49,846 nucleotides of DNA. Source: Flavobacteriales bacterium. Lineage in GTDB: Bacteria > Bacteroidota > Bacteroidia > Flavobacteriales_E > Vicingaceae. This document shows, in pieces, positions 3,995 to 24,619 of this stretch. How positions within the stretch are numbered: the stretch's first letter is position 1; every line of letters starts with the position of its first letter. The notes below the pieces were generated by a model. The model saw nothing but the letters and a program-made list of their open reading frames with translations. It did not search any database and had not been told where the DNA came from. The stretch is from the NCBI GenBank assembly GCA_020853105.1, contig JADYZM010000070.1, positions 1 through 49,846 of the forward strand, given 5' to 3'. The position numbers and the translations under genes were made by a program.

Positions 3995-5137
3995 TTAGTT
4001 TGAAAAGAGTTTTTTATAATCTCGAATTAAATTTTCGCAAGATGACTTATTACTACCTAATTGGTAGGAATTTTTCGACCAAATTTGAAATTCGTCATTA
4101 TTCATCTTTGCTAATAGATCAATTTTTTTTGAGAAAATAAGCTTATCATCAAGGCTTATGTCAAAACCAATTTTTTGAATCTCTAAATTCCTCCACGGTG
4201 TTCTATCTGAAATTATTGGAACACAAGAGTTTTGCATTGCTTCTAATATAATATGTCCGTAATTTTCACCAGTTGATGGAAGTAATAAACAGTGATAATC
4301 ATTCAACGTTTTTTCCAAATCATTGTGGTTTAATATACCATTATATTGAATTTTTATATTTTCAGGAACATTTGAAATTGCTTTTAAACAATCGTCCCAA
4401 TATATTTGATTGTATATTGGACCGTAAATATCGAATTGAATTTTTTCTTTACAATTTTTTAGAATTTCAATAGCAAATAATGTATTCTTTTCAGGGGCTA
4501 TACGGGCAACTGAAATTATTTTTAATTCGTTTTCTGTTTTTAGTTTTTTTAAAAAAGAACCCTTTTTTGTATGAGGTAGGTTTTCGGCGATAAGTATTTT
4601 TATATACTTTCCAAATGTATTTTCAATTGCTTGTTTTTCATCAAGTGTTGTAGCATGAAAGATAACATCATTAAAGTAGTTGATAAACTTAAAAAAAGTC
4701 AAAAAGAATTTCTTTTTTTTGCTTTTAACTGCCAAAGAACCTTGAGACAACATTCCTCTTACAGCTAAAACAGTTTTTATTTTATATTTTTTTGCATAGA
4801 AAATAGGAACCAAAGTGAAAAAATAGGAATATAAGCTATTACAGTAAACAAGTTGTGGATTGATTTCTTGAATCAATTTCGAAATCATATTTGCAGTACA
4901 ATTAGTATTAGAAAGATAATAGATAGATGCATTATCTATTTTGTTCCATGAATTTTTTATAATGGTTGTATAAGGTGTGGTTTCTAAATAATCTGTATCA
5001 CGAGTAACAATATAAAAATCATAAAATTCATGTAAATGATCAACTATGTTACTTATAGATCGAATTGGGCCCCCAGCTTTAAAGCCTGGTTTATACCAAT
5101 CGATAAAAATTAAAATTTTAGAGTTTACTACAGTCAA
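3995..5137 (-). CDS. family 4 glycosyltransferase
   Basis: This is a retaining GT-B glycosyltransferase. The 380-residue protein has an N-terminal acceptor domain beginning ILIFIDWYKPGFKAGGPI, with the Gly-rich loop typical of GT4. The C-terminal donor domain contains ARIAPEKNTLFAIEIL and the E-x7-E signature LPSTGENYGHIILEAM. The start is TTG; no in-frame ATG is near the N-terminus. Gaps of 73 bases upstream and 44 downstream are larger than elsewhere in the cluster, but both neighbours lie on the same strand, so it is probably in the same transcript. The sugar specificity is unknown. Confidence 0.9.
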   Translation of the reverse strand: MTVVNSKILIFIDWYKPGFKAGGPIRSISNIVDHLHEFYDFYIVTRDTDYLETTPYTTIIKNSWNKIDNASIYYLSNTNCTANMISKLIQEINPQLVYCNSLYSYFFTLVPIFYAKKYKIKTVLAVRGMLSQGSLAVKSKKKKFFLTFFKFINYFNDVIFHATTLDEKQAIENTFGKYIKILIAENLPHTKKGSFLKKLKTENELKIISVARIAPEKNTLFAIEILKNCKEKIQFDIYGPIYNQIYWDDCLKAISNVPENIKIQYNGILNHNDLEKTLNDYHCLLLPSTGENYGHIILEAMQNSCVPIISDRTPWRNLEIQKIGFDISLDDKLIFSKKIDLLAKMNNDEFQIWSKNSYQLGSNKSSCENLIRDYKKLFSN

Positions 5138-12461: not shown

Positions 12462-13604
12462 TTATTTTGAAGGTTTTACAATAGAAAAAATATTTTTAAA
12501 TGGAGAAAGGATTGGGTACTTTTCATAATATGATTTAGACTCAGTTCTGAAGGAGTTGTGAGATACTTCAGGCAAATTCATTATTTTCTGAAACTCATTT
12601 TCAGAAATTTCTAATTTTTTTAAAACAAATTCTTTATCTATTGTAAGTTGTTCTGCTTCATAAATGGGTTGTTTTAATTCTTGCAAAGCATCTTCTTTCG
12701 TAATTTGACCTGAACAGATAAGTGTCGAAAGATGTGCTTTGCGCTTATCCACTTTAAATTTCTCAGGTAAAATATAACCCTGATAAAATCTTGTCCATAC
12801 TGATTCATAGTGTTTTCCACCGTAATCTATCCAATTTAATTCCGATTTTAATTTTTCCTTCACATCATTTTTGTTATAATTGATATAATTTAATAAAGTA
12901 ACAGACTCTACTTTATTTATTAAACTATAATATCTTTTTTTTGCCATTGTTAACAATGGAAATGTTTTCAATGGAATACTTCCAAACTTTTTATGTATAT
13001 CGATTATATTTTCTGAATCTTGTTTGTTATAAACCCATGCACTTGGTAGTATTGCTTCTGTTACAATGTTATATCCACTCAAGAAGTATTTGATTTTATG
13101 TTGTGCTGCAAGCTTATACAATGTTGCTACAATTGCATGATCGGTTAAAGCTTCAATATCAATTACTGATGCTTTTAAATAGGACATTTGTAGGTCTCTA
13201 AATTCCTCCCAATTAATTACATAAGTGTATAAATCAAAACCTAAATTAGAAACAATATTTTCTATATTTTTAACAGCTAATTCCGAATTCCAACCGTTAT
13301 CAAAATGAACAATTAATGGTCGCAGACCTTCTCTTTTAGCTATTAATGCAAGATAAGAACTATCTACCCCACCACTAAGACCTAAGATGCAGTCGTATGG
13401 CTTGTTTCTTCCCGATTGTTTTATTTCATTAATTTTTTTTTGAAAAAAAATAGTACCTTCTTCTCCTTTTTTGACGTAGAATTGCTCTTTTTGAAAATAC
13501 TCATAATAGTAGTTACAAACTCCATTTTTATCAAATGTTATATTTGGATCTGCGATGTTATCCATCACAGTTTTAGAACATTGAATAATAGTATTTAATT
13601 CCAT
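12462..13604 (-). CDS. N-acetyl sugar amidotransferase (WbuX/WbpG/PseA-like)
   Basis: This PP-loop ATP pyrophosphatase-type enzyme is expected to activate the carbonyl of a sugar N-acetyl group and replace its oxygen with ammonia, giving an acetamidino group. The 380-residue protein has the PP-loop LGLSGGVDSSYLALI (about residues 73-87), IVHFDNGWNS, and YFLSGYNIVTEAILP, all conserved in the family. In many members the N-terminus carries two C-x2-C pairs; here they read CSKT and CNYY, so one Cys of each pair is missing. Ammonia would come from the HisH/HisF2-like pair at 23.2-24.6 kb. The ATG start is clear. It heads the minus-strand glycosyltransferase series. Confidence 0.9.
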   Translation of the reverse strand: MELNTIIQCSKTVMDNIADPNITFDKNGVCNYYYEYFQKEQFYVKKGEEGTIFFQKKINEIKQSGRNKPYDCILGLSGGVDSSYLALIAKREGLRPLIVHFDNGWNSELAVKNIENIVSNLGFDLYTYVINWEEFRDLQMSYLKASVIDIEALTDHAIVATLYKLAAQHKIKYFLSGYNIVTEAILPSAWVYNKQDSENIIDIHKKFGSIPLKTFPLLTMAKKRYYSLINKVESVTLLNYINYNKNDVKEKLKSELNWIDYGGKHYESVWTRFYQGYILPEKFKVDKRKAHLSTLICSGQITKEDALQELKQPIYEAEQLTIDKEFVLKKLEISENEFQKIMNLPEVSHNSFRTESKSYYEKYPILSPFKNIFSIVKPSK

Positions 13605-13659
13605 AATTTTAATAGGAATGATTTTTAATTTAAGAATGGAGACTGAATTAGTATAGAAA

Positions 13660-13680
13660 AAGCTGAGAATTACTCAGCTT
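13660..13680. terminator. bidirectional terminator containing the stop codon of the PID-tail gene
   Basis: An 8-base inverted repeat (13660-13667 with 13673-13680) has a 5-base loop. T-runs follow on both strands: 13681 onward on plus, and 13657-13660 read as T on minus. On the minus strand the TAA stop of the upstream small gene (13672-13670) lies inside the loop. It would separate the export/flippase transcript from the amidotransferase transcript. Confidence 0.75.
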
Positions 13681-13912
13681 TTTTATTGATATCATAAATT
13701 TTCTTACCACCATAAATTGCACCAGCCAACAATAAAAAACTTATTCCTCCGTCAATTGGTACACAAGGTGGTGGCCAACAAGGGAATCCTCCTCCTCCTG
13801 GCCCTCCCCCTCCTGGTCTTGGTGGCGGTGCACCACTCGCTAGCACAATATTGTTTATGCTAGAAAGAAGTACAAATAATAATAGAAAAATTATTCGTTT
13901 CTTATTTTTCAT
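13670..13912 (-). CDS. small secreted protein with PID-type C-terminal sorting tail
   Basis: The 80-residue protein has four parts. A signal peptide spans residues 1-26 (basic start, then a Leu-rich core ending LASGA). A Gly/Pro-rich linker spans 27-51 and includes Cys45 and Cys50. The motif PIDGG is at 52-56. A short hydrophobic segment (57-68) is followed by a basic tail starting KK at 70-71. Motif, membrane segment and basic tail form the tripartite layout of exosortase substrates; tails with P-I-D are a recurrent type in Bacteroidetes. An exosortase gene lies 7.6 kb away in the same locus. It is inferred to be cleaved and anchored or released by it. Its function is unknown. Confidence 0.78.
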   Translation of the reverse strand: MKNKKRIIFLLLFVLLSSINNIVLASGAPPPRPGGGGPGGGGFPCWPPPCVPIDGGISFLLLAGAIYGGKKIYDINKKAE

Positions 13913-13929
13913 TTTTTTAACTAAGGTTG

Positions 13930-13959
13930 CAAATATAATTTTTTTTTTTATTTATGCAA
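13930..13959 (-). promoter_or_regulatory. Bacteroidetes-type promoter of the PID-tail gene
   Basis: On the minus strand a TTG (-33 region, 13959-13957) and TATATTTG (-7 box, 13937-13930) are separated by 19 bases, the consensus spacing of the Bacteroidetes TTTG-N19-TAnnTTTG promoter. The box lies 17 bases before the ATG at 13912. This is the best promoter match seen in the window. Confidence 0.6.
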
Positions 13960-13990
13960 TTAAATACGTTTCTTTATCTCATATAGTTGG

Positions 13991-16978
13991 TTAATAGTTC
14001 AATTTTTTTACTGATATATTTTTTGCATTTTTAATTGTGATGATATTAACACCTTTTGGTAAATAAGAGTTGGGTATTAAAAGTTTTGTTGAAGTAACAT
14101 TTGTATAATCATCAATAATTTTTTGACCAATTGCATTTATTATTGAAACTGAGTAGGGTAAGTTATCATTAGCAACTTCAATTACAGTATAATCACTATT
14201 CTTGTAGATTATCGGAGTAAAGTCAGTTGATGTACTAATTTGAGAAGAGTTTGATAATTTCAACTCAAATCGGTTGTCTTCTTCATTAAGTTCAATATCA
14301 ACTTCAATTTGTTTCAATTGATTTAAGTTATATGTAATATTATTTTTTGTATCTGTAAGTATAATGTTATTGTATTTACTTTTTAAATTTTCAAATGAAA
14401 TTGCCTCAATTTTATATTTTCCTGCAATTCCAACATTTATAGTAATTGGAATTATAACTTCAATTTCATTATTAAATGAAACGATAGCTAATTTTTTAGT
14501 TGAACCAATTGTTGACGCAGTTATACTAGGAGTTTCTTTTAAAAAACTTGGTTTGAATGTGGCATCAAAATTATCATAATCAATTGAAGCTAATTTATTT
14601 AAGCGTAGTTTGAGTTCGTGAGAATTGTAAAATAAATCACTTCTAATTTTTAATATACCTTCAGTAAATTCATATGGTTCTGAATCTTCAGTAGTTCTCC
14701 AAAAAGTACTTAATGCAGAGTTATTTTTAGACGCTTCAGTAAATGTGAAGGAATTATCTCCGTTACTTTCTACCCAAAATCCTTGGTGTGGAGGTATTGA
14801 TCCAGATGTTTTTGCATCATAGCTTCCATTATTTGTATTCCAAATTTGATATGTACTGTATAAAGATGGTTTTGTTAATGAATTCCAATTTACCCACGCT
14901 TGGTATGGATTTCCAACAAGATTCCAAGAGTCGTAAACTACTACCTCTACATCACCATAGTTTGGAGTTCCTCTCGAATCAAATGTTGTATTATAAAAAG
15001 TAGTAGTATCATCTGCTAACCACATTTCTATAGCTTTACCGGGAGCTAAAACATAAGAAGTATCAGTAATTGCAGTGTAACTTTGGAATAATGGATTGTA
15101 AAAATAAACTGAATTTGCTCCGCCACAACTTCCAGAGAATCCATTAACACCACACATATACAATTCTCTAGCCGTTTGACTAGGATTACAATCCCAATCA
15201 CTTAAATGATTATTTAAAACAGGAGAAGAAATATCTCCCCAACCATCATTTCTTTGTGAAACAAATCGTTGAACAACAAATTCCCCGGAAAAGCCTTCTC
15301 CGTTACTACTGTTTAAAATAACTGCTGTCTTTGTAGCGTTTGAAATAAATGTAAATGTACCACTTATGTTTTGTAATTGACCGTCAAGAATTTGAACAGC
15401 ATCTGTAACCTTAAAATTACCTGTGTATAAACCAACGTTTGAGCTGTTGTTTACTTTTAAATAAGCAAAGTCTATTGTATTTGTTGAATTATTTGTAATG
15501 GATTGATTAGATGTCCCATTAAAAGTTATTGTTTTATGCAATGCATTACCAGAAGCTCCAATTGTATAGTTACCAGTAACGTTAAAAGTTGATGTTTGAG
15601 TAGTATTTAATGTTCCATTTATTGTAATGTTGTCAACTGTTATTGCTGAAGAAACTGTAACTGTATGTCCTGAAGTTATTGTTATATCATCTGAAGAAGA
15701 TGGTACACAACTGCAATTCCATGTTGAAGCAGAACTCCAATTTCCTGTTTTTACAGAAGCAATACCAACATTTGAGCCTGATGCAATTGTAAAATAATCT
15801 CCATCAGCTAGAGTAACTGAGCTAAATGTTACTAAACCTCCCGAATCAGCAAATGGACCATATTCAGTTACATTACCGTCGCTAAAATCTCCATTATTAT
15901 TTTCTACCAGTAAGTAGTATGAACCGCTTGGCAATGTAAGGGTAGAAACATCAAAAATTATATTAATAGCACCAGGAGTTCCTGTAACACCTGCCCTCCA
16001 TGTTCTGGATATTCTTGAGCCACCACTAATTGTTCCTGGTACATCATTTGTTGTTGTAGATAAATTTGTGTTGTTATGTCCGGTTAATATGTAGGTTCCA
16101 TTAGTTATTGAACCTGTTGAAATTGTTACAATTCCTTTTCCTTGTGCAATTGTATTGTTTCCATCTGATTCTGCTCCTATTCCAATTACTTGATATTGAT
16201 GAGTAACGTCATAACTATACAAATCATTACTAATTGAAATAGAATATTTTGATGATAGATAATTTTCAACAATATTTTTTTGTGCTGAGTTTAAAGTAGT
16301 GTTATAAATAATAACTTCACCCATATCACCATTAAATTTATTTGAATTATTTAATGCAGCCCCGATACTATTGTTGTAATTTCCTGTAGGATTTCCGTTT
16401 GCACCTGTTTTTGAAGTAATCAGAGATCCATCTTTAAATCCATTAAAAGTTTGTGCATCTCCATCCCAAATAGATGAAATAATTTGAAAATTACTAGATT
16501 GAGATGTACTGTTATCAACAATACCTCCAGTACTATTTAATACCCATGTTCTAATATTGGCATTATTTCTATAAGTTCTGTAAAATTGATTACTTTGAGT
16601 GAATGAGCCTTCGTATAACATTCCAACATGATTTGCTTTGTTTCCATTATACACAATAAATTGAGAAGAATTGTTTGTGTTGAGTGAAGATATGCCTGAA
16701 CCTGTTCGTAGCCAATTTGATCCGTTAAATCGAACGCCACTAAAAGAGGAATAATTAACGACTTGAGGTTGATTACCACTAACGGCTTGAGAAAAGTTAT
16801 TTCCATTACCGGATTGGTCTAACCAAGATGCAATTTTTGGATTTACACCCAAAGAAACAACATTACCATCTAGCCAAATTGAATTGTTTGATGAATTTCC
16901 GACACCACCTGGTCCAGTCTGTCCAAAAGCAACATTTAACAATCCGAAAAATATTGCAGAAAAGTATATTTTTTTCAT
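13991..16978 (-). CDS. LamG-domain secreted protein with T9SS type A sorting domain
   Basis: The 995-residue protein appears to be a cell-surface adhesin or matrix protein. Residues 1-20 form a signal peptide (MKKIYFSAIFFGLLNVAFGQ). A concanavalin/LamG-like domain follows (about 25-235: WLDQSGNGNNF, FNGSNWLRT, GEVIIYNTTLNSAQK). Next comes a module starting near YDVTHQYQVIGIGAES, then a G8/beta-helix-like stretch (GNWSSASTWNCSCVP, ITITSGHTVTV) and a long beta region. The end (about 915-995) resembles the T9SS type A sorting domain that directs export and surface attachment. An ATG 24 bases upstream would lengthen a good signal peptide; 16978 is preferred. A -7 box lies about 40 bases upstream. 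No catalytic motif was seen. Confidence 0.88.
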   Translation of the reverse strand: MKKIYFSAIFFGLLNVAFGQTGPGGVGNSSNNSIWLDGNVVSLGVNPKIASWLDQSGNGNNFSQAVSGNQPQVVNYSSFSGVRFNGSNWLRTGSGISSLNTNNSSQFIVYNGNKANHVGMLYEGSFTQSNQFYRTYRNNANIRTWVLNSTGGIVDNSTSQSSNFQIISSIWDGDAQTFNGFKDGSLITSKTGANGNPTGNYNNSIGAALNNSNKFNGDMGEVIIYNTTLNSAQKNIVENYLSSKYSISISNDLYSYDVTHQYQVIGIGAESDGNNTIAQGKGIVTISTGSITNGTYILTGHNNTNLSTTTNDVPGTISGGSRISRTWRAGVTGTPGAINIIFDVSTLTLPSGSYYLLVENNNGDFSDGNVTEYGPFADSGGLVTFSSVTLADGDYFTIASGSNVGIASVKTGNWSSASTWNCSCVPSSSDDITITSGHTVTVSSAITVDNITINGTLNTTQTSTFNVTGNYTIGASGNALHKTITFNGTSNQSITNNSTNTIDFAYLKVNNSSNVGLYTGNFKVTDAVQILDGQLQNISGTFTFISNATKTAVILNSSNGEGFSGEFVVQRFVSQRNDGWGDISSPVLNNHLSDWDCNPSQTARELYMCGVNGFSGSCGGANSVYFYNPLFQSYTAITDTSYVLAPGKAIEMWLADDTTTFYNTTFDSRGTPNYGDVEVVVYDSWNLVGNPYQAWVNWNSLTKPSLYSTYQIWNTNNGSYDAKTSGSIPPHQGFWVESNGDNSFTFTEASKNNSALSTFWRTTEDSEPYEFTEGILKIRSDLFYNSHELKLRLNKLASIDYDNFDATFKPSFLKETPSITASTIGSTKKLAIVSFNNEIEVIIPITINVGIAGKYKIEAISFENLKSKYNNIILTDTKNNITYNLNQLKQIEVDIELNEEDNRFELKLSNSSQISTSTDFTPIIYKNSDYTVIEVANDNLPYSVSIINAIGQKIIDDYTNVTSTKLLIPNSYLPKGVNIITIKNAKNISVKKLNY

Positions 16979-17019
16979 AAAAAGGAGTTTTAGTAATTTC
17001 AATTATTACGTATAATTTC

Positions 17020-17027
17020 CAAAGATA
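17020..17027 (-). promoter_or_regulatory. candidate -7 box (TATCTTTG) for the LamG gene
   Basis: On the minus strand this matches TAnnTTTG exactly, about 40 bases before the chosen start at 16978. No clear -33 partner was found. It suggests that the surface protein is transcribed separately from the flippase genes upstream. Confidence 0.4.
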
Positions 17028-17076
17028 GTTGCTTTTTTTTATTAAAATGATGCTAATAATTTTTTTTATTTGAAAT

Positions 17077-17682
17077 TTATATTTTGTAATATCCTTTAAA
17101 CTTATTTTCATATTCATATCGAATACAATTTTCAGGAGAGATATTTTTAATTTTTCTAGCCGGATTACCTGCAATCACACAGTACCCTTCACTGAAGGAT
17201 TTTGTAACAACTGAACCTGCACCAACTATTGTAAAGTCTCCTAAAATTACATTCGGCAAGATTGTTGAGTTTGCACCGAGCCAACAATATTTACCAATTT
17301 CTACTTTTTCCGGCAGGTGAATTCTCGTGTCATTAATGTCATGGTTAGCTGAAATAATTGAGACTCTTGGTCCAATTTGAGTGTAATCACCTATAATTAT
17401 TTTCCCAATTCCTTGAATATAACATCCGCCCATATATCCAGGATTTGTATCAATACCTATTGTAATATTTTTAGGATTTACCACTTTGCTGGTAAAATGA
17501 ACAGGCCAATTTGCTTTACGATTATCTCCAATATTTAAAATTTTTTGAAAGAACCACATTTTAAAAGTTATTGGACATTGATAATCACTTGTTTTTTTTA
17601 TGAAATTAAAATAAGGTAAAAGTATAATCAATCGAACAACCAATTGAAGAGGATGTTTTATATAAAAAAATAGTTTATTCAT
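17077..17682 (-). CDS. left-handed beta-helix acyltransferase (serine acetyltransferase-like)
   Basis: The 201-residue cytosolic protein has hexapeptide repeats: IQGIGKIIIGDYTQIGPRV, IGKYCWLGANSTILPNVILG, FTIVGAGSVV. SANHDINDTR holds the likely catalytic His, and the closing GNPARKI is typical of sugar O-acetyltransferases (WcaB/CysE-like). It probably acetylates a sugar of the repeat unit. Its ATG overlaps the stop of the flippase gene by 4 bases, so the two are translationally coupled. It is a second hexapeptide acetyltransferase in the locus besides the WcaF-like one, which points to at least two acylation positions. Confidence 0.87.
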   Translation of the reverse strand: MNKLFFYIKHPLQLVVRLIILLPYFNFIKKTSDYQCPITFKMWFFQKILNIGDNRKANWPVHFTSKVVNPKNITIGIDTNPGYMGGCYIQGIGKIIIGDYTQIGPRVSIISANHDINDTRIHLPEKVEIGKYCWLGANSTILPNVILGDFTIVGAGSVVTKSFSEGYCVIAGNPARKIKNISPENCIRYEYENKFKGYYKI

Positions 17683-18944
17683 AGTTTATTTTTTGAAAGA
17701 ATATATGATCGATATAAGTAATATAAATATATCAGACTATAGGTTAAAGAGTATAGAATCAATAACAATTTTATATCTTTAAAAATTAAAGATGAAAAAT
17801 AGAGAGAAATTGAGATAATAACTAATGAAATTACATGTAACCAAAAATCTTCATTTTGTCTGTTGGTTATTGTAAAAATGTATGTAAGCGGACTCGTTAT
17901 TGCTCTTATATAAAACATGATTGAAAGTATTTGTACGTATTCTCCAGCTACTCTCCAATTACTTCCAAAGACTATTTCAAAAATAATAGGTCCGAAGAAT
18001 AATAGTAATAAAAAAGGAGGGGCAAGAATAATAGCAAGTGATTTTAATGTTTTTTTATAGGTATTTGTACAATTTTTTTTGATGTTATATTCTTCGGTAG
18101 CTTGTTGAGCAAAGACTAACCCAACTGATTTTGTAATAAATGTTACAGGGATAGTGGTCATTCGTCTCCCGTAATTAAACCAGCCAATAATAGTCTGATT
18201 ATAAAATAAACTCATAAAATACACAGGTAGGTTGGTTGTCCAGTTGAATAAAAATTCAGTAGGTAAAGAATACATAGGAAATTTGTAATGCTTATTCAGT
18301 AAAAGTTTCATATACTTTAATTTTATATTCTTTAGGTTTATAAAAATATCCTTAATTCCAATAAAAAGTACTATTGAATTAATTATTTGACCACTTATAA
18401 AACCAACCAATAAACCAACTGATGAATAAAAAAAATATCCAATCCAAAGAGTTATTATTGTTGTAGTAATAGAATTTGCAATTAAAGCAGACGAAATGAA
18501 TTTGTATTTTTTGTACTTATTGAGTTTCTTGGTATAGGTAGAAATAAATCCAGTAAGGATTATACAAAGTGGCAAAGTTAACAGCCAATTTTCAAGTTCA
18601 GCAGCGTTTAGTAATGAGGAAATTTCATGTTTTACTAACAATAAACAGATAAATGTTGCAATTGCCAAAACCAATGAATTTAATATAGAAAATAAAACTA
18701 AATTATCTTCTTGTGCCTTGTTTTTGGTAAGTAATACTGCATTGGCATATTGAAGAGTAGAAAATGTGTTTAGTACGGATGAAATACTCATATATATACC
18801 TAATAATCCAAAATCTGAGGGAGAATAGATTCTTGTTGTTAATGGTGAAAGTAGTATAGGTATTAGTTGACTAATTGTTGTTCCTGAAAATGTTACGAAC
18901 AAATCTTTTGAGAATAAGAACTTGATTTTGTTGTATATTTTCAA
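17679..18944 (-). CDS. Wzx-like polysaccharide flippase
   Basis: The 421-residue membrane protein has about 12 hydrophobic segments. Its N-terminus, FSGTTISQLIPILLSPLTTRIYSPSDFGLLGIY, matches the RfbX/MATE-like O-antigen translocase family. It would move the undecaprenyl-linked repeat unit across the cytoplasmic membrane for the polymerase at 8-9 kb. The only start is TTG, giving MKIYNKIKFLFSKDLF. It follows the tyrosine autokinase gene by 36 bases and overlaps the acyltransferase gene by 4. Confidence 0.92.
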   Translation of the reverse strand: MKIYNKIKFLFSKDLFVTFSGTTISQLIPILLSPLTTRIYSPSDFGLLGIYMSISSVLNTFSTLQYANAVLLTKNKAQEDNLVLFSILNSLVLAIATFICLLLVKHEISSLLNAAELENWLLTLPLCIILTGFISTYTKKLNKYKKYKFISSALIANSITTTIITLWIGYFFYSSVGLLVGFISGQIINSIVLFIGIKDIFINLKNIKLKYMKLLLNKHYKFPMYSLPTEFLFNWTTNLPVYFMSLFYNQTIIGWFNYGRRMTTIPVTFITKSVGLVFAQQATEEYNIKKNCTNTYKKTLKSLAIILAPPFLLLLFFGPIIFEIVFGSNWRVAGEYVQILSIMFYIRAITSPLTYIFTITNRQNEDFWLHVISLVIISISLYFSSLIFKDIKLLLILYSLTYSLIYLYYLYRSYILSKNKL

Positions 18945-18980
18945 AATTTAAGTAGGATTAACTTTACTAGTGGAAAAAAA

Positions 18981-21389
18981 TTATTTTTTTAATAACCTCT
19001 TATAAATTGGTTTGTTCTTCGACTTGTTTTCTTCAGAATCGCCGTAATACCCATATCCATACCCATATCCATACCCATATCCATACCCATACCCATATCC
19101 ATACCCATATCCATACCCATATCCAATACGTTGCTCTTTTAAATCGTTTACTAATATGCCGAGGTTTGAAAATTTATGTTCATTGTATAAATCATCTATC
19201 ATTTTTAAATGATTTTTTGTTGTATATCGCTGACGAACAACATAAAGATTCATGTCAGAATATCCGGATAAAATCACCCCGTCAGTAACCAATCCTATTG
19301 GTGGTGTATCAATTACTATAACATCAAATTCTTGCTTTGCTTTTTTCATGAATTCATCCATTTTATTGGATTCTATAAGTTCAGATGGGTTAGGAGGAAT
19401 AGGGCCTGAAGAAGCTAAAAAAATGTTTGGATAAGAAGTTTGTTGAATAGTTTCCTCAAAAGTAGCTTTCCCAATGAGGAAATTTGATAAACCGATAGAA
19501 TTTTTTAAATTAAAGTCATTGTAAATTTTTGGTTTTCTCATGTCGGCACCAATCAAAAGTGTTTTTTTTCCTAAAAGTGAATAGGCAAGTGATAAATTGA
19601 TGGAACAAAATGTTTTTCCTTCACCACTGATTGATGATGTAACTAAAATACAAAAATTTTCTTTTTCTTTAGTAAAGTAGTTGATGTTAGTCCGTATGGT
19701 TCTGAATGATTCTGCCACCAATGATTTGGGTTGGGATACCAATATTAAATTTCCGGCATCCTTTATATGTCCAATTGTTCCAAGAATTGGAATTTTAGTT
19801 ATGGATTCAATATCGCTTCTCTCCATAATTTTTGTATTGAATAGAAATAAAAGAAGTACAATAAGAAATGGAATTATGAACGCAACACCAAAATTAAACA
19901 TGTAGATTGAATTCGGATTTATACCTGAATATGAAACAGTGTAATCACTAGCCGGTTCAATAATTTTTGCATTCGGAACATTTGATGCTTCGGCAACGGC
20001 TGCTTCACTTCTTTTTTGAAGTAAATAATTATAAAAAGCGTTATTAATTTCAAAAATCCGATTGTATCTAATAAATTCAGTTTCAGCAACTGGAGTTTCA
20101 GCAAGTTTCAAATTAGCATTCACTGTTTGTTCTTTTATGCGATCAAGCTCAAATTTGGTTTGCATCAAACGAGACGAGATGTTGGATGTTAAAACTTCTT
20201 TATTAATTAGAAGTTCTTGATTTATTAATTTAAAGGCAACAGTACTGTCTTTAACTTCTGATTGAAGTTTCTTTTTTTTGCTGTGCAACTCAACTAAATC
20301 AACAATTGAACGGTATAAAGGATCTTGAGCACTTATGTTTATTATATTAGGAATAAAAATTTTATCTATATCAGAATTTTTTAGGTTATTGATTGTTTCC
20401 TTATAAAAATTATATTCAAATTGTTTTTTTAAGTAGTCATTTTCAAGGTTTATTGAGCTTGGTACTATTGCTTCACTATTTATCTGAAGTTTTTGAGTGT
20501 TGGCGCCAACTTTAAAATCTTCTAATTTCTTTTCGTTAGAACTTAAATCTTTTAATACATCAATAAGTTGGTTGTCTATGAATTTTATTGTATTTGAAGC
20601 TATTTTACTGTTTTCTTCCAATCCGTTTTCAATGTATTTTTTCATAAGAGCATTCAGAAAGTCTATTTCTTTTTGAATGGTTGGACCTGTTAAGCTAAAT
20701 TTTAAAATAGATGATTCAGGTGGATCCGTTTCTAAATAAATACTTGTTTGATATACTTTTGCTAAAGAGTTTAAATCATTAATAACAAACAAAAAAAGTT
20801 TATCGGGAGTTCTTTCCTTTTCAAATTCTTCTGTTAAACTAAAACGTACTCTAACATCATTTAAAGAAAACCATTGATTAAATGAAAAGGTTTTAGTTTC
20901 GTCAAAATCTTCGCTAGTTGGAGATATTAGAAATGTATTTTGGTCAATTATTTTAGTATAATATGTAATAGTTCTATTTTCAATAATTGAGGAATCAATT
21001 TCTACAATAAACGGACTGTTTTTGTATAACTCAGTAGTTTTAATGTTACCGATATCGTAGTAAAAAACTTTGAAATCGACATCATCTAAAGCTGATCGCA
21101 TAAGGTTGTATGAACTAATAGTACCAATTTCATTTGTTAAGCGATTTCGGGCACTCACTAATTCCATACCCTTTATAAAGTATTCTTGCCCCCAAGATGT
21201 GTATTCATCTTTTAAAAGAACTTTACTATATGTTGTATAAATAGGTACGCTATATCTGATTTTATAGAAGCTGACAATAAAAGCAAGGATAAAAGCAAGG
21301 ATAAATAAATACCAAAATTTTAACATTCTGGCGCCAAGAGCTTTAAAATCGAAACTTTCTATTTTATTGATATTGTTTGGGTTACTCAT
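18981..21389 (-). CDS. Wzc-like polysaccharide co-polymerase / tyrosine autokinase
   Basis: The 802-residue inner-membrane protein controls chain length and export. Membrane segments lie near residues 27-47 and 500-520, flanking a long periplasmic coiled-coil Wzz domain. The cytosolic BY-kinase domain has Walker A SSISGEGKT (about 583-591), Walker A' LLIGADMRKPKI and Walker B VIVIDTPPIG. The C-terminus normally holds a Tyr cluster that is autophosphorylated. Here it is a run of 13 Gly-Tyr units (756-781) plus another Tyr, encoded by a 6-base tandem repeat. No Wza-type exporter or separate phosphatase is in the window. The ATG start is well supported, with a -7 box about 20 bases upstream. Confidence 0.95.
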   Translation of the reverse strand: MSNPNNINKIESFDFKALGARMLKFWYLFILAFILAFIVSFYKIRYSVPIYTTYSKVLLKDEYTSWGQEYFIKGMELVSARNRLTNEIGTISSYNLMRSALDDVDFKVFYYDIGNIKTTELYKNSPFIVEIDSSIIENRTITYYTKIIDQNTFLISPTSEDFDETKTFSFNQWFSLNDVRVRFSLTEEFEKERTPDKLFLFVINDLNSLAKVYQTSIYLETDPPESSILKFSLTGPTIQKEIDFLNALMKKYIENGLEENSKIASNTIKFIDNQLIDVLKDLSSNEKKLEDFKVGANTQKLQINSEAIVPSSINLENDYLKKQFEYNFYKETINNLKNSDIDKIFIPNIINISAQDPLYRSIVDLVELHSKKKKLQSEVKDSTVAFKLINQELLINKEVLTSNISSRLMQTKFELDRIKEQTVNANLKLAETPVAETEFIRYNRIFEINNAFYNYLLQKRSEAAVAEASNVPNAKIIEPASDYTVSYSGINPNSIYMFNFGVAFIIPFLIVLLLFLFNTKIMERSDIESITKIPILGTIGHIKDAGNLILVSQPKSLVAESFRTIRTNINYFTKEKENFCILVTSSISGEGKTFCSINLSLAYSLLGKKTLLIGADMRKPKIYNDFNLKNSIGLSNFLIGKATFEETIQQTSYPNIFLASSGPIPPNPSELIESNKMDEFMKKAKQEFDVIVIDTPPIGLVTDGVILSGYSDMNLYVVRQRYTTKNHLKMIDDLYNEHKFSNLGILVNDLKEQRIGYGYGYGYGYGYGYGYGYGYGYGYGYYGDSEENKSKNKPIYKRLLKK
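19047..19124. repeat. hexanucleotide microsatellite coding a Gly-Tyr tail
   Basis: Thirteen tandem 6-base units alternate CCATAT and CCATAC (period 12) on the plus strand, with one phase slip around 19086-19094 where two like units are adjacent. On the minus strand they read GGA/GGG-TAT, coding 13 Gly-Tyr pairs at the end of the tyrosine autokinase. Slippage by whole units keeps the frame and changes only the number of tyrosines. Confidence 0.95.
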
Positions 21390-21409
21390 TACAAGTCTTA
21401 ATATGTCGG

Positions 21410-21417
21410 CAAAAATA
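21410..21417 (-). promoter_or_regulatory. candidate -7 box (TATTTTTG) for the tyrosine autokinase operon
   Basis: This is an exact TAnnTTTG match on the minus strand, about 20 bases before the autokinase ATG. No -33 element was found at 17-23 bases. The 120-base gap also serves the divergent exosortase gene, for which no perfect box was seen. Confidence 0.4.
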
Positions 21418-21509
21418 GTTTTTTATTCAATACTTAATCTTTATTGGAATATTAAAAACATCATTGAAATTAAAAATCTATAATTTTGGATTGTTTACAA
21501 TGAATTTGA

Positions 21510-22040
21510 ATGCAATCATTATTTAAAAATATAAATAAACAAGATAAATTTATTGCCATATTTATTTTAAAAGGTATATCATTATACGTGTTGTGGTATT
21601 TGATATACGATAACTGGTTGCTAAAGGATGGTTTTGTTGATCATTTTTTAATTGACCACTTAGTCAAATCTACTTCGTCGATACTAAAAATCGTCGGGTA
21701 TAAAGTCTTTGAATATTCTGATGCAGTAGGGGTTGATGGAACTCACGGAGTGTTAATTGGTGCACCATGCAATGGGTTAAGTTTGTTTGCATTGTTTGCT
21801 GGGTTTATCATTATTTTTCCTGGCAATTGGAAAAAAAAAGTAATTTTTATATCTATAGGAATTTTATTTATTCACATCATTAATATTTTTAGATTAGTAG
21901 CTTTAGCATTGGTTGTTGTTTATAAGCCAGAATCATTAGAATTTAATCACAAATATACATTCACTGTTTTGGTTTATGTATTCATATTTATACTATGGAT
22001 AATTTGGGTAAATAAATTTGCTTTGAAAAAAAACAATTGA
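21510..22040 (+). CDS. exosortase family transpeptidase (Bacteroidetes XrtF/XrtX type)
   Basis: This is an integral-membrane cysteine protease/transpeptidase that recognises C-terminal sorting tails of secreted proteins. The 176-residue protein has about five membrane segments. The catalytic set is visible: Cys87 in GAPCNGLSL, Arg128 in NIFRLVAL and His147 in FNHKYTF, with spacing normal for exosortases. It is shorter than proteobacterial EpsH-type enzymes, as is usual for the Bacteroidetes forms. It is divergent from the autokinase operon and overlaps its partner gene by 4 bases. Exosortases typically lie in exopolysaccharide loci; the likely local substrate is the PID-tail protein at 13.7 kb. 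The subfamily name was not verified. Confidence 0.9.
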   Translation: MQSLFKNINKQDKFIAIFILKGISLYVLWYLIYDNWLLKDGFVDHFLIDHLVKSTSSILKIVGYKVFEYSDAVGVDGTHGVLIGAPCNGLSLFALFAGFIIIFPGNWKKKVIFISIGILFIHIINIFRLVALALVVVYKPESLEFNHKYTFTVLVYVFIFILWIIWVNKFALKKNN

Positions 22041-22519
22041 ATTTAAAAAAAAAGAATACCATTCTTATAGGATACATTACACTACTTTTAGTGGTCGGAT
22101 ATATTCGTGAATCCATTTTTCTTGTTATTAATTCAACTATCAATAATGTACCTTTTCCATATAACAATGCATATATAACTCCACCAAAATTTTTATATGA
22201 AATTGACTTTGGAAATTTAATATTGTCTAAATGGGTTTTAACCCTTTTTTTTACAATCGGATTTACAGCATTAACTTCAGCTTTAATTTATAAATATTTT
22301 AAGAATAAATCTTTTGTGATTTTAACTGTTATAATTTACTCGTCAATTTTTATTTTAGCCTTACTAGTTTCTTCAATCGGATTCTTCATAAATAAATATG
22401 ATGAATTATATTTGTTAGGAAGATTAATTGCAGGACTCACTCAAGGACCTTTATTATCATTGATTTTGTTTGTATTGTTTTATTTTAAAAACAAAACGGG
22501 TTTTAGTAATTCTATTTGA
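22037..22519 (+). CDS. exosortase-associated membrane protein
   Basis: The 160-residue protein has four hydrophobic segments. Its N-terminus, VVGYIRESIFLVINSTIN, has the Arg-Glu-x2-Phe-x-x-Ile-Asn pattern seen in the small membrane proteins encoded next to Bacteroidetes exosortases. The start is the TTG of a TTGA overlap with the exosortase stop; no early in-frame ATG exists, so translational coupling is likely. Its role is unknown, perhaps stabilising the exosortase or presenting substrate. Its 3' end overlaps the convergent sulfotransferase gene by 8 bases. Confidence 0.75.
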   Translation: MNLKKKNTILIGYITLLLVVGYIRESIFLVINSTINNVPFPYNNAYITPPKFLYEIDFGNLILSKWVLTLFFTIGFTALTSALIYKYFKNKSFVILTVIIYSSIFILALLVSSIGFFINKYDELYLLGRLIAGLTQGPLLSLILFVLFYFKNKTGFSNSI

Positions 22520-23144
22520 AAAAGGGAACATATATCTTGTGGTATAAAAAAGAATAAATTTTTTTATATAGTAACCAAATCTTTTTTTTCAAGTTATTAG
22601 GGTTTTTTGTATACAACCCTTTGTTGGTATGTGGAAAATTGAATTCAGGAATTTCAATTCCTAAGAAAGGACATAATTTTTCCCAACCTTCACCCATTGT
22701 AAAATCAATAACTATGAAATCATTTGGTCTGTTTAAGAAATATTCTTTAACTTCAGCTTGGTGTTTTAAATATACTTTTTTAAAGGTTTCCTCATTATCT
22801 TTTGGAAAACCTTTACCATAAATAAAATCTCTTATTGGAGTACTATCTTCATAAAAGTGGTTAAGACAACTCTTATACCAACTGTTTACATCTCTATCTG
22901 TCAAAATAAATTTACTACCTGGAAAAGCAATATCCATTTCTTTATACAAAAGAAACCATGGGTCATCTTCAAAAGCATCGTTATTTTTAGCTAACTCAAA
23001 AAAGGGAGTTAAATTATGGTTTAATAATTCATTATGAAGAACATTTTGTTGTCCACAAACTTTATATCCTAATTGGTGCAAGGCACTAGCTAAACTTGAT
23101 GTTCCAGTTTTATGAAAACCTAAGCCGAAAACCTTTTGTTTCAT
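22512..23144 (-). CDS. sulfotransferase family protein
   Basis: The 210-residue protein has the PAPS 5'-phosphosulfate loop VFGLGFHKTGTSSL at residues 5-18 and a 3'-phosphate region SKFILTDRDVNSWYKS, both characteristic of P-loop sulfotransferases. It may sulfate a sugar of the exported polysaccharide. No PAPS synthesis genes are in the window. The frame is open 41 codons further upstream, but the ATG at 23144 gives the normal family start and avoids overlap with the divergent HisH-like gene. A TAACTTTG box lies 27 bases upstream. Confidence 0.87.
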   Translation of the reverse strand: MKQKVFGLGFHKTGTSSLASALHQLGYKVCGQQNVLHNELLNHNLTPFFELAKNNDAFEDDPWFLLYKEMDIAFPGSKFILTDRDVNSWYKSCLNHFYEDSTPIRDFIYGKGFPKDNEETFKKVYLKHQAEVKEYFLNRPNDFIVIDFTMGEGWEKLCPFLGIEIPEFNFPHTNKGLYTKNPNNLKKKIWLLYKKIYSFLYHKIYVPFFK

Positions 23145-23171
23145 ACAAATAAAAATAAATACAAATATGTT

Positions 23172-23190
23172 CAAAGTTATCCTATTTTTG
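23172..23190. promoter_or_regulatory. back-to-back -7 boxes of a divergent promoter
   Basis: TAACTTTG reads on the minus strand (23179-23172), 27 bases before the sulfotransferase ATG. TATTTTTG reads on the plus strand (23183-23190), 29 bases before the HisH-like ATG. Both match TAnnTTTG. Only 3 bases separate them, so polymerases binding the two promoters would overlap and may compete. Confidence 0.45.
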
Positions 23191-23219
23191 GAAACAATTG
23201 GAAAAGAAAAATTGTTCCT

Positions 23220-23834
23220 ATGCTCACCATCATCAATTACAACGCCGGCAATATAAAATCCATTCAAAATATGTTGAAGAGGATTGGTGTTAAGTCAACA
23301 ATAAGTTCATCAGTGAATGAAATTGAATCTGCCGAAAAATTGATACTTCCAGGTGTGGGTCATTATGACTACGGAATGAAAAACCTTAAAGAATGCGGAT
23401 TGATAGAATGTTTAAACAAAAAAGTACTAGTAGAAAAGACTCCGTTGTTGGGAATTTGCTTAGGAGCACAGTTATTAGGAAATAGAAGTGATGAAGGGAT
23501 TGAATCCGGTTTAGGGTGGATTGATATGGATGTTATAAGGTTTGATAAAAGTAACATGAATGCAGATTTAAAAGTTCCACACATGAGTTGGAATGAAATT
23601 TCAATTCAAAAAACATCAAGATTAATGGAAGGACTGAATAATGAATCCAGATTCTATTTTGTACATTCGTTTCACATGAAATGCAAAAACCAATCGGATA
23701 TTCTGACTACAACCCAATATGGATATGAGTTTGTTTCTTCTGTTGAACATGAAAATATTTTTGGAGTTCAGTTTCATCCTGAAAAGAGTCATAGATTTGG
23801 CATGCAATTATTAGAAAACTTTATAAAGATATAA
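23220..23834 (+). CDS. HisH-like glutamine amidotransferase (acetamidino sugar pathway)
   Basis: This is a class I glutamine amidotransferase subunit that hydrolyses glutamine to ammonia. The 204-residue protein has the oxyanion/start motif IINYNAGN, the nucleophile Cys in GICLGAQLLG, and the His-Glu pair in GVQFHPEKS, so the triad is complete. The ATG at 23220 gives the family N-terminus; earlier in-frame codons lie in the divergent promoter. No other histidine gene is nearby. Its partner is the HisF2-like gene 17 bases downstream. In organisms with WbpG/PseA-type enzymes such a pair feeds ammonia to acetamidino formation, which fits the amidotransferase at 12.5-13.6 kb. Confidence 0.9.
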   Translation: MLTIINYNAGNIKSIQNMLKRIGVKSTISSSVNEIESAEKLILPGVGHYDYGMKNLKECGLIECLNKKVLVEKTPLLGICLGAQLLGNRSDEGIESGLGWIDMDVIRFDKSNMNADLKVPHMSWNEISIQKTSRLMEGLNNESRFYFVHSFHMKCKNQSDILTTTQYGYEFVSSVEHENIFGVQFHPEKSHRFGMQLLENFIKI

Positions 23835-23851
23835 AAGAAACATAGAAATTG

Positions 23852-24619
23852 ATGAGAAGGATAAGGGTTATACCTGTGCTGACATTACAAAACGAAAAAT
23901 TAGTTAAAACCATTCGTTTTAAAAATCCTACATATATAGGCGACCCCATCAATGCAGTTAAAATTTTCAACGAAAAAGAAGTTGACGAAATTGTTATTTT
24001 AGATATTACAGCCACCGAAGAAAAACGGGAGCCCAATTATAAAAAAATAGAAGAAATTGCCGGAGAAGCCTTTATGCCTTTTGCCTATGGGGGCGGTATA
24101 ACTTCACTATCTCAAATTGAAAAATTATTTAAACTCGGAATTGAAAAAGTAGTTGTCAATTCAGTGCTAGCAAATAATTTAAGCCTAATTACAGATGCTT
24201 CAAATATCTTTGGGGCTCAAAGTATTGTTGCTTCTGTTGATGTGAAGCGAAATTTGTTTGGAAAGTTCAATGCATATCATACTGGAGGTTCTAATAAAAT
24301 TGATTTTCCATTAATCGATTTTGTTAAAAAAATTGAACAATCAGGAGCCGGAGAGTTGTTTATCAATTCCATTGATAATGACGGAACCTACAAAGGCTAT
24401 GACATTGAATTAATCAAAATTGTTGCATCGGTTACACATCTTCCTATTGTTGCTTGTGGTGGTGCTTCCTCTGTTGATAACTTTTTAGAAGCAGTTAAAA
24501 ATGGTGCCTCTGCAGTAGCTGCCGGAAGTTTGTTCGTATATACCGGAAGTACAAAAGGAATCCTAATTAATTACCCCAAACAAGAAGATTTAAAGCAAAA
24601 ATTTTACTCTAAAATATAG
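23852..24619 (+). CDS. HisF2/AglZ-like acetamidino modification protein
   Basis: The 255-residue TIM-barrel protein resembles HisF, the ammonia-using half of imidazole glycerol phosphate synthase. The start MRRIRVIPVLTLQ lacks the catalytic Asp of true HisF (IPCLD becomes IPVLT), whereas the second Asp, in VASVDVKRN, is kept. Phosphate loops FAYGGGI and ACGGAS remain. FKNPTYIGDPINAVKIFNEKEVDE matches the HisF2 type used in sugar acetamidino formation. The ATG at 23852 is preferred over the TTG just before it. It probably forms the ammonia channel with the HisH-like subunit and passes ammonia to the PP-loop amidotransferase. It is the last gene of the polysaccharide locus. Confidence 0.88.
   Translation: MRRIRVIPVLTLQNEKLVKTIRFKNPTYIGDPINAVKIFNEKEVDEIVILDITATEEKREPNYKKIEEIAGEAFMPFAYGGGITSLSQIEKLFKLGIEKVVVNSVLANNLSLITDASNIFGAQSIVASVDVKRNLFGKFNAYHTGGSNKIDFPLIDFVKKIEQSGAGELFINSIDNDGTYKGYDIELIKIVASVTHLPIVACGGASSVDNFLEAVKNGASAVAAGSLFVYTGSTKGILINYPKQEDLKQKFYSKI

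Follow-up and report, generated by a model that had tools for sequence, protein, structure and literature searches.

A PID-CTERM micro-protein, exosortase X and a predicted type IX secretion cargo in one polysaccharide locus of a Flavobacteriales bacterium

The window analysed was a stretch of 49,846 bp (contig JADYZM010000070.1, assembly GCA_020853105.1) from a Flavobacteriales bacterium of the family Vicingaceae. The locus of interest comprises a gene for a PID-CTERM micro-protein, a gene for a large secreted protein located 78 bp upstream of it, and the exosortase gene xrtX coupled to the gene of a membrane partner, all surrounded by genes of polysaccharide and sugar metabolism (Table 1). 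The micro-gene and xrtX are separated by 7.6 kb, as had been given in the initial annotation, which was made from the sequence alone.

Table 1. Features of the exosortase X/PID-CTERM locus and its surroundings (positions in the window).
Feature	Position	Strand	Remarks
WbuX-type N-acetyl sugar amidotransferase	12462..13604	-	adjoins micro-gene
Terminator-like hairpin AAGCTGAG/CTCAGCTT with T run	13657..13684	-	at micro-gene stop codon; seen in sequence, unscored
PID-CTERM micro-protein, 80 aa	13670..13912	-	signal peptide, 26-residue Gly/Pro body ending CWPPPCV, PIDGG tail, basic end
Bacteroidota-type promoter of micro-gene	13930..13959	-	TTG, 19 nt, TATATTTG (TAnnTTTG); sequence, -7 box conservation
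Secreted cargo, 1003 aa	13991..17002	-	ConA-like lectin fold (N-terminal), G8-like region, beta module, diverged T9SS type A-like tail; profile, structure comparison
Wzc-like polysaccharide tyrosine autokinase with (GY)n tail	18981..21389	-	divergent neighbour of xrtX, also in many family members
Exosortase X (XrtX), catalytic Cys87/Arg128/His147	21510..22040	+	NF046081 match, alignment
XrtX-associated membrane protein (diverged)	22037..22519	+	overlaps xrtX end by 4 bases; gene pair also in relatives
HisH-type glutaminase for acetamidino sugar	23136..23834	+	start probably further in, at MLTIINYNAG
AglZ/HisF2-family acetamidino sugar protein	23849..24619	+	flanks the exosortase locus

The micro-protein is built of a signal peptide followed by the body SGAPPPRPGGGGPGGGGFPCWPPPCV, the PIDGG motif, a hydrophobic helix and the basic end KKIYDINKKAE. 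The body, counted by eye after ...VLA, has 26 residues including two cysteines (CWPPPC), in line with the 25-30 residues of Gly/Pro-rich mature product estimated initially. The NCBIfam model NF046080 (PID_CTERM) matched residues 51-74 of 80, i.e., the C-terminal tail, with 42.3 bits (cut-off 26), which together with the reading of the open reading frame bears out the secreted protein with PIDGG, helix and basic end described before. A search for further PID tails had been suggested with that description, and the profile search of the 2.87-Mb genome revealed no other PID_CTERM match above the cut-off. The micro-gene also has the promoter of its own that had been ascribed to it, with the sequence TTG-N19-TATATTTG ending 18 nt ahead of the ATG. 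A TAnnTTTG box was detected within 90 nt upstream of the micro-gene in 22 of the 28 family members relative to 6% in shuffled sequence, the box being farther off in some members because their start codon was set too late in the analysis.

The product of xrtX was matched by NF046081 (exosortase X) with 197.2 bits (cut-off 170) as the only XrtX above the cut-off in the genome, and by the exosortase superfamily model TIGR04178 with 56 bits (cut-off 23). The residues Cys87, Arg128 and His147, on which the initial annotation of a complete exosortase was based, were found at the places given and were the same in all 52 XrtX proteins aligned. Its coupled membrane partner was likewise recognized, both by the four-base overlap with xrtX and by a full-length alignment to NF046082 (E 6e-12), although the score of 45.5 bits stayed below the cut-off of 75; the protein was taken here as a diverged form of the XrtX-associated membrane protein.

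The enzyme and the tail are not new since both are already modelled in NCBIfam, in the XrtX/PID-CTERM set (NF046081, NF046080 and NF046082), where the window's enzyme and tail scored above the cut-offs and its partner below. The set names the parts, whereas the tiny bodies and the type IX secretion system (T9SS) cargo partner were seen here (either may be mentioned in the curation notes of the models). The open-access papers searched yielded none on PID-CTERM or on XrtX as a protein, and among those found none tied exosortase or PID substrates to T9SS cargo; as the search covered open-licence papers, this is weak evidence of novelty. The locus resembles the PEP-CTERM/EpsH (XrtA) system in the Cys/Arg/His exosortase, in the order of motif, hydrophobic helix and basic tail, and in the polysaccharide cluster with a Wzc-type kinase. 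It differs in the motif, which is PID(GG) and not PEP, and in the best-matching model, which is XrtX and places the enzyme outside XrtA. PEP-CTERM substrates are mostly larger exoproteins, in contrast to the PID substrates of about 66 aa, only one of which is encoded in the window's genome.

The pairing of PID tails with the exosortase was surveyed in 296 Bacteroidota genomes drawn evenly, with exosortases called at E<=1e-5. A PID tail scoring over the cut-off was present in 48 genomes, every one of which had an exosortase, against a base rate of 90/296 (hypergeometric p 1e-30), and PID was likewise found in 39 of the 40 genomes with an XrtX of at least 165 bits (Fisher p 8e-39); these p-values overstate independence because the genomes are related. 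PID tails common in genomes without the exosortase, which the initial annotation had named as the observation that would speak against the pairing, were thus not seen. The number of PID substrates was one in the window's genome and from one to nine in the others. In the window's own order, represented by 39 genomes of a single family, placed in or near Vicingaceae by named relatives such as Vicingus and Acidiluteibacter, PID was found in 34 and XrtX in 37, and in 29 of them, the window included, both lay on one contig with a median distance of 3.5 kb and a maximum of 17.5 kb. The operon order XrtX-partner-cargo-PID was observed in four loci (L181, L182, L187 and L192) and XrtX-partner-PID in three (L175, L188 and L193), while in five loci from other families (L066, L075, L084, L138 and L142) the PID gene immediately adjoined XrtX or a related exosortase. 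The earlier proposal of a dedicated micro-substrate of this exosortase is strengthened by the co-occurrence and by the linkage within the family, and the XrtX-PID pairing can be regarded as well supported and very probable. A second, diverged set was noticed in genome G330 (L176, 8281-9046 (+)), consisting of a T9SS-like cargo, a TPLDSG-tailed micro-protein and a second exosortase directly after.

Across the phylum, the 89 PID precursors measured had a median length of 66 aa. About 15 residues separated PID from the predicted signal peptide, and one in four of these was proline; the cleavage sites were set by a simple rule and not by a trained predictor. A typical micro-protein, seen in several paralogues within a single genome, reads AQ-PGLPSAPSQA-PIDGGLGLLAAAGGAYAIKKLRDK. 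In 29 of 30 cases from the window's family, a cysteine pair (mostly C-x(4-5)-C) stood just ahead of PID. The PID tail was more conserved than the body. Two PID-like matches were set aside: a 995-aa frame with a PID-like tail (G166, L323), taken at first as a long substrate, is a multi-span membrane protein and was left out of the micro-protein count, and the match in L227 was rejected as its tail had no PID motif.

The genes next to PID were examined in 20-kb regions around the PID genes, with the neighbours scanned against NCBIfam. The same-strand gene directly upstream of PID mostly encoded a large secreted protein. The T9SS type A tail (TIGR04183) was detected on 68 of the 80 same-strand upstream neighbours (89 upstream neighbours in all) and on 11 of the 53 same-strand downstream neighbours (88 in all). 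As TIGR04183 gave 19-131 matches per genome in ten genomes of the PID set, with 131 in the window's genome, the chance expectation for an upstream neighbour to carry such a tail is about 5% at most, a figure that assumes an estimated 2500 genes per genome.

The cargo of the window, whose true start is probably the ATG at 16978, gave no NCBIfam match at E<=1, TIGR04183 (cut-off 23) included, and its only Pfam-A match was G8. Two of its orthologues exceeded the TIGR04183 cut-off, with 27.1 bits (L174) and 28.2 bits (L182). The tail of the cargo family aligned with T9SS tails in a profile-profile comparison with 97.4% probability and an E-value of 1.5e-11, the second profile including the window's tail as one of 80 rows. 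By way of the family profile, the window's tail was assigned as a homologue of type A tails, and secretion by T9SS is predicted. The N-terminal part has the ConA-like lectin fold, common to the lectin domains of glycosidases and clostridial neurotoxins; a toxin reading of this domain was dropped and the fold was taken as a common jelly-roll only. The beta module occurs once in the window's genome, for all the 131 TIGR04183 matches there, and in 99 of the 296 genomes overall, several of them without PID, and a module specific to PID was therefore rejected; its predicted structure (pLDDT 78.6, usable) had no PDB match at E<=0.001. In seven other regions (L069-L073, L125 and L128), several cargo and PID pairs were present together, some of the cargos being very large (to about 3000 aa), with sensor-like proteins nearby.

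The initial interpretation therefore holds as far as the dedicated micro-substrate is concerned and is incomplete in that it missed the conserved T9SS cargo partner directly upstream. This partner shifts the likely function from a polysaccharide-bound peptide alone to an accessory of a surface protein, and a functional tie between the PID micro-protein and the cargo is likely.

The window's exosortase locus is flanked by acetamidino-sugar genes of the WbuX, HisH and HisF2 types; HisH/HisF2 were also found in one congener and beside PID in L187. The (GY)n repeat near the C-terminus of the Wzc-like kinase is about 25 residues long, and the same tail of varying length was seen in relatives. A DegT-type aminotransferase gene precedes xrtX in six genomes from a different class. 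Three of these (L231, L232 and L233) were read further out and have xrtX within a run of wbp-like UDP-sugar genes, the Wbp pathway being assigned by resemblance with NCBIfam scores below the equivalog cut-offs. In Porphyromonas, a Wbp/Vim sugar serves to anchor T9SS cargo (PMC7468200), and a sugar common to the XrtX locus and to T9SS cargo anchoring is possible by analogy. The likeness to PorU cargo anchoring with the Wbp/Vim linking sugar (PMC7468200) extends to the type A tail of the cargo, to the sugar-amidation genes near the locus and to the wbp-like genes adjoining xrtX in six other genomes. However, PorU acts on the cargo tail itself at the outer membrane, whereas the presumed target of XrtX is a distinct micro-protein, at the inner membrane. 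A glycosyltransferase encoded at 3995-5137 (-) of the window resembles the XrtY-associated XYAG1 (79.5 bits, far under the cut-off of 400).

Taken together, the family identities, the invariance of the catalytic residues, the co-occurrence across genomes, the physical linkage, the conserved promoter and cargo adjacency, all of them observed, make it on balance probable that the micro-protein is a dedicated XrtX substrate and that both form one functional unit with the upstream T9SS-type surface protein. The presence of the beta module in genomes without PID speaks against such a unit, as does the window's cargo tail, which TIGR04183 by itself did not detect. Cleavage, transfer, the acceptor and the peptide-cargo contact are inferred. 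After export, the PID tail would keep the micro-protein in the inner membrane, where XrtX would cut near PID. The short Gly/Pro peptide, with about 25 residues here and some 15 in most genomes, would probably be passed on to an acceptor, a glycan or lipid produced by the polysaccharide genes nearby. Once conjugated, the peptide might help with the seating, display or anchoring of the lectin-like cargo encoded alongside it at the outer surface. Such a course, with trimming or transfer at the inner membrane and a product serving the cargo at the surface, is the one favoured here; in its details it is a guess, and a doubtful one. In more general terms, XrtX/PID could be a side branch of type IX secretion devoted to maturation or anchoring. 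Every cargo would come with a micro-substrate of its own, and the exosortase would attach a peptide of 10-30 residues to a glycan or lipid by which that cargo is captured or fixed at the surface; this is put forward tentatively and with somewhat less than even confidence. If true, two sorting systems thought to be separate would act on one surface protein. The result provides a short list of candidate substrates per genome, namely micro-proteins tied to T9SS cargo, and bears on the open question of how exopolysaccharide is linked to surface proteins in the Bacteroidota, a major phylum.

In another reading, XrtX processes the micro-protein and the peptide is the product itself, linked to polysaccharide or released, with the T9SS cargo merely a co-regulated neighbour. 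It agrees with the conserved promoter of the micro-gene, with the location of XrtX in polysaccharide or UDP-sugar gene clusters and with the XrtF-type genomes, seven of which (G029, G107, G257, G084, G285, G103 and G226) carry PID-like micro-genes beside ribE/pdxA/rpmF with no cargo, so that the cargo is not obligatory everywhere. It is nevertheless unlikely, as a T9SS-tail gene stands immediately ahead of 68 of 89 PID genes, an arrangement that recurs in numerous paralogous copies, at separate loci within one genome, and across several families.

Even less probable is a micro-protein that stays whole and acts as a small single-span chaperone or tether for the cargo in the inner membrane, with XrtX either recognizing it only weakly or acting on something else. 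The better conservation of the tail would suit such a role, and with a body of only some 15 residues there is little left to form a mature product; the tail has, however, the layout of a sorting signal and is accompanied by an exosortase in each of the 48 genomes that have it, and direct XrtX-partner-PID operons exist. A chance neighbourhood of an unrelated small secreted protein and an exosortase had nothing in its favour and is hardly credible in the face of the NF046080 score of 42.3 bits and the linkage conserved in 29 family genomes, the window's included.

The unit formed by XrtX, micro-protein and cargo, which is the reading preferred here, can also be set beside XrtF of Flavobacterium johnsoniae (Fjoh_1448/1449), again a related exosortase with an associated membrane protein. 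XrtF is covered by a separate family model, TIGR04128, to which the window's XrtX scored 87.6 against a cut-off of 90. Mutants of F. johnsoniae lacking xrtF or its partner lost biofilm formation and surface colonisation, like a mutant in the T9SS gene porZ, and the exosortase substrates were left as future work in that study, the one mutant study found (PMC10936215). In related XrtF-type genomes, Pro-rich LPID micro-genes, which are candidate genes of XrtF substrates, adjoin ribE (riboflavin synthase); they were seen beside ribE and rpmF/fabH in seven loci (L122, L124, L144, L223, L225, L226 and L242).
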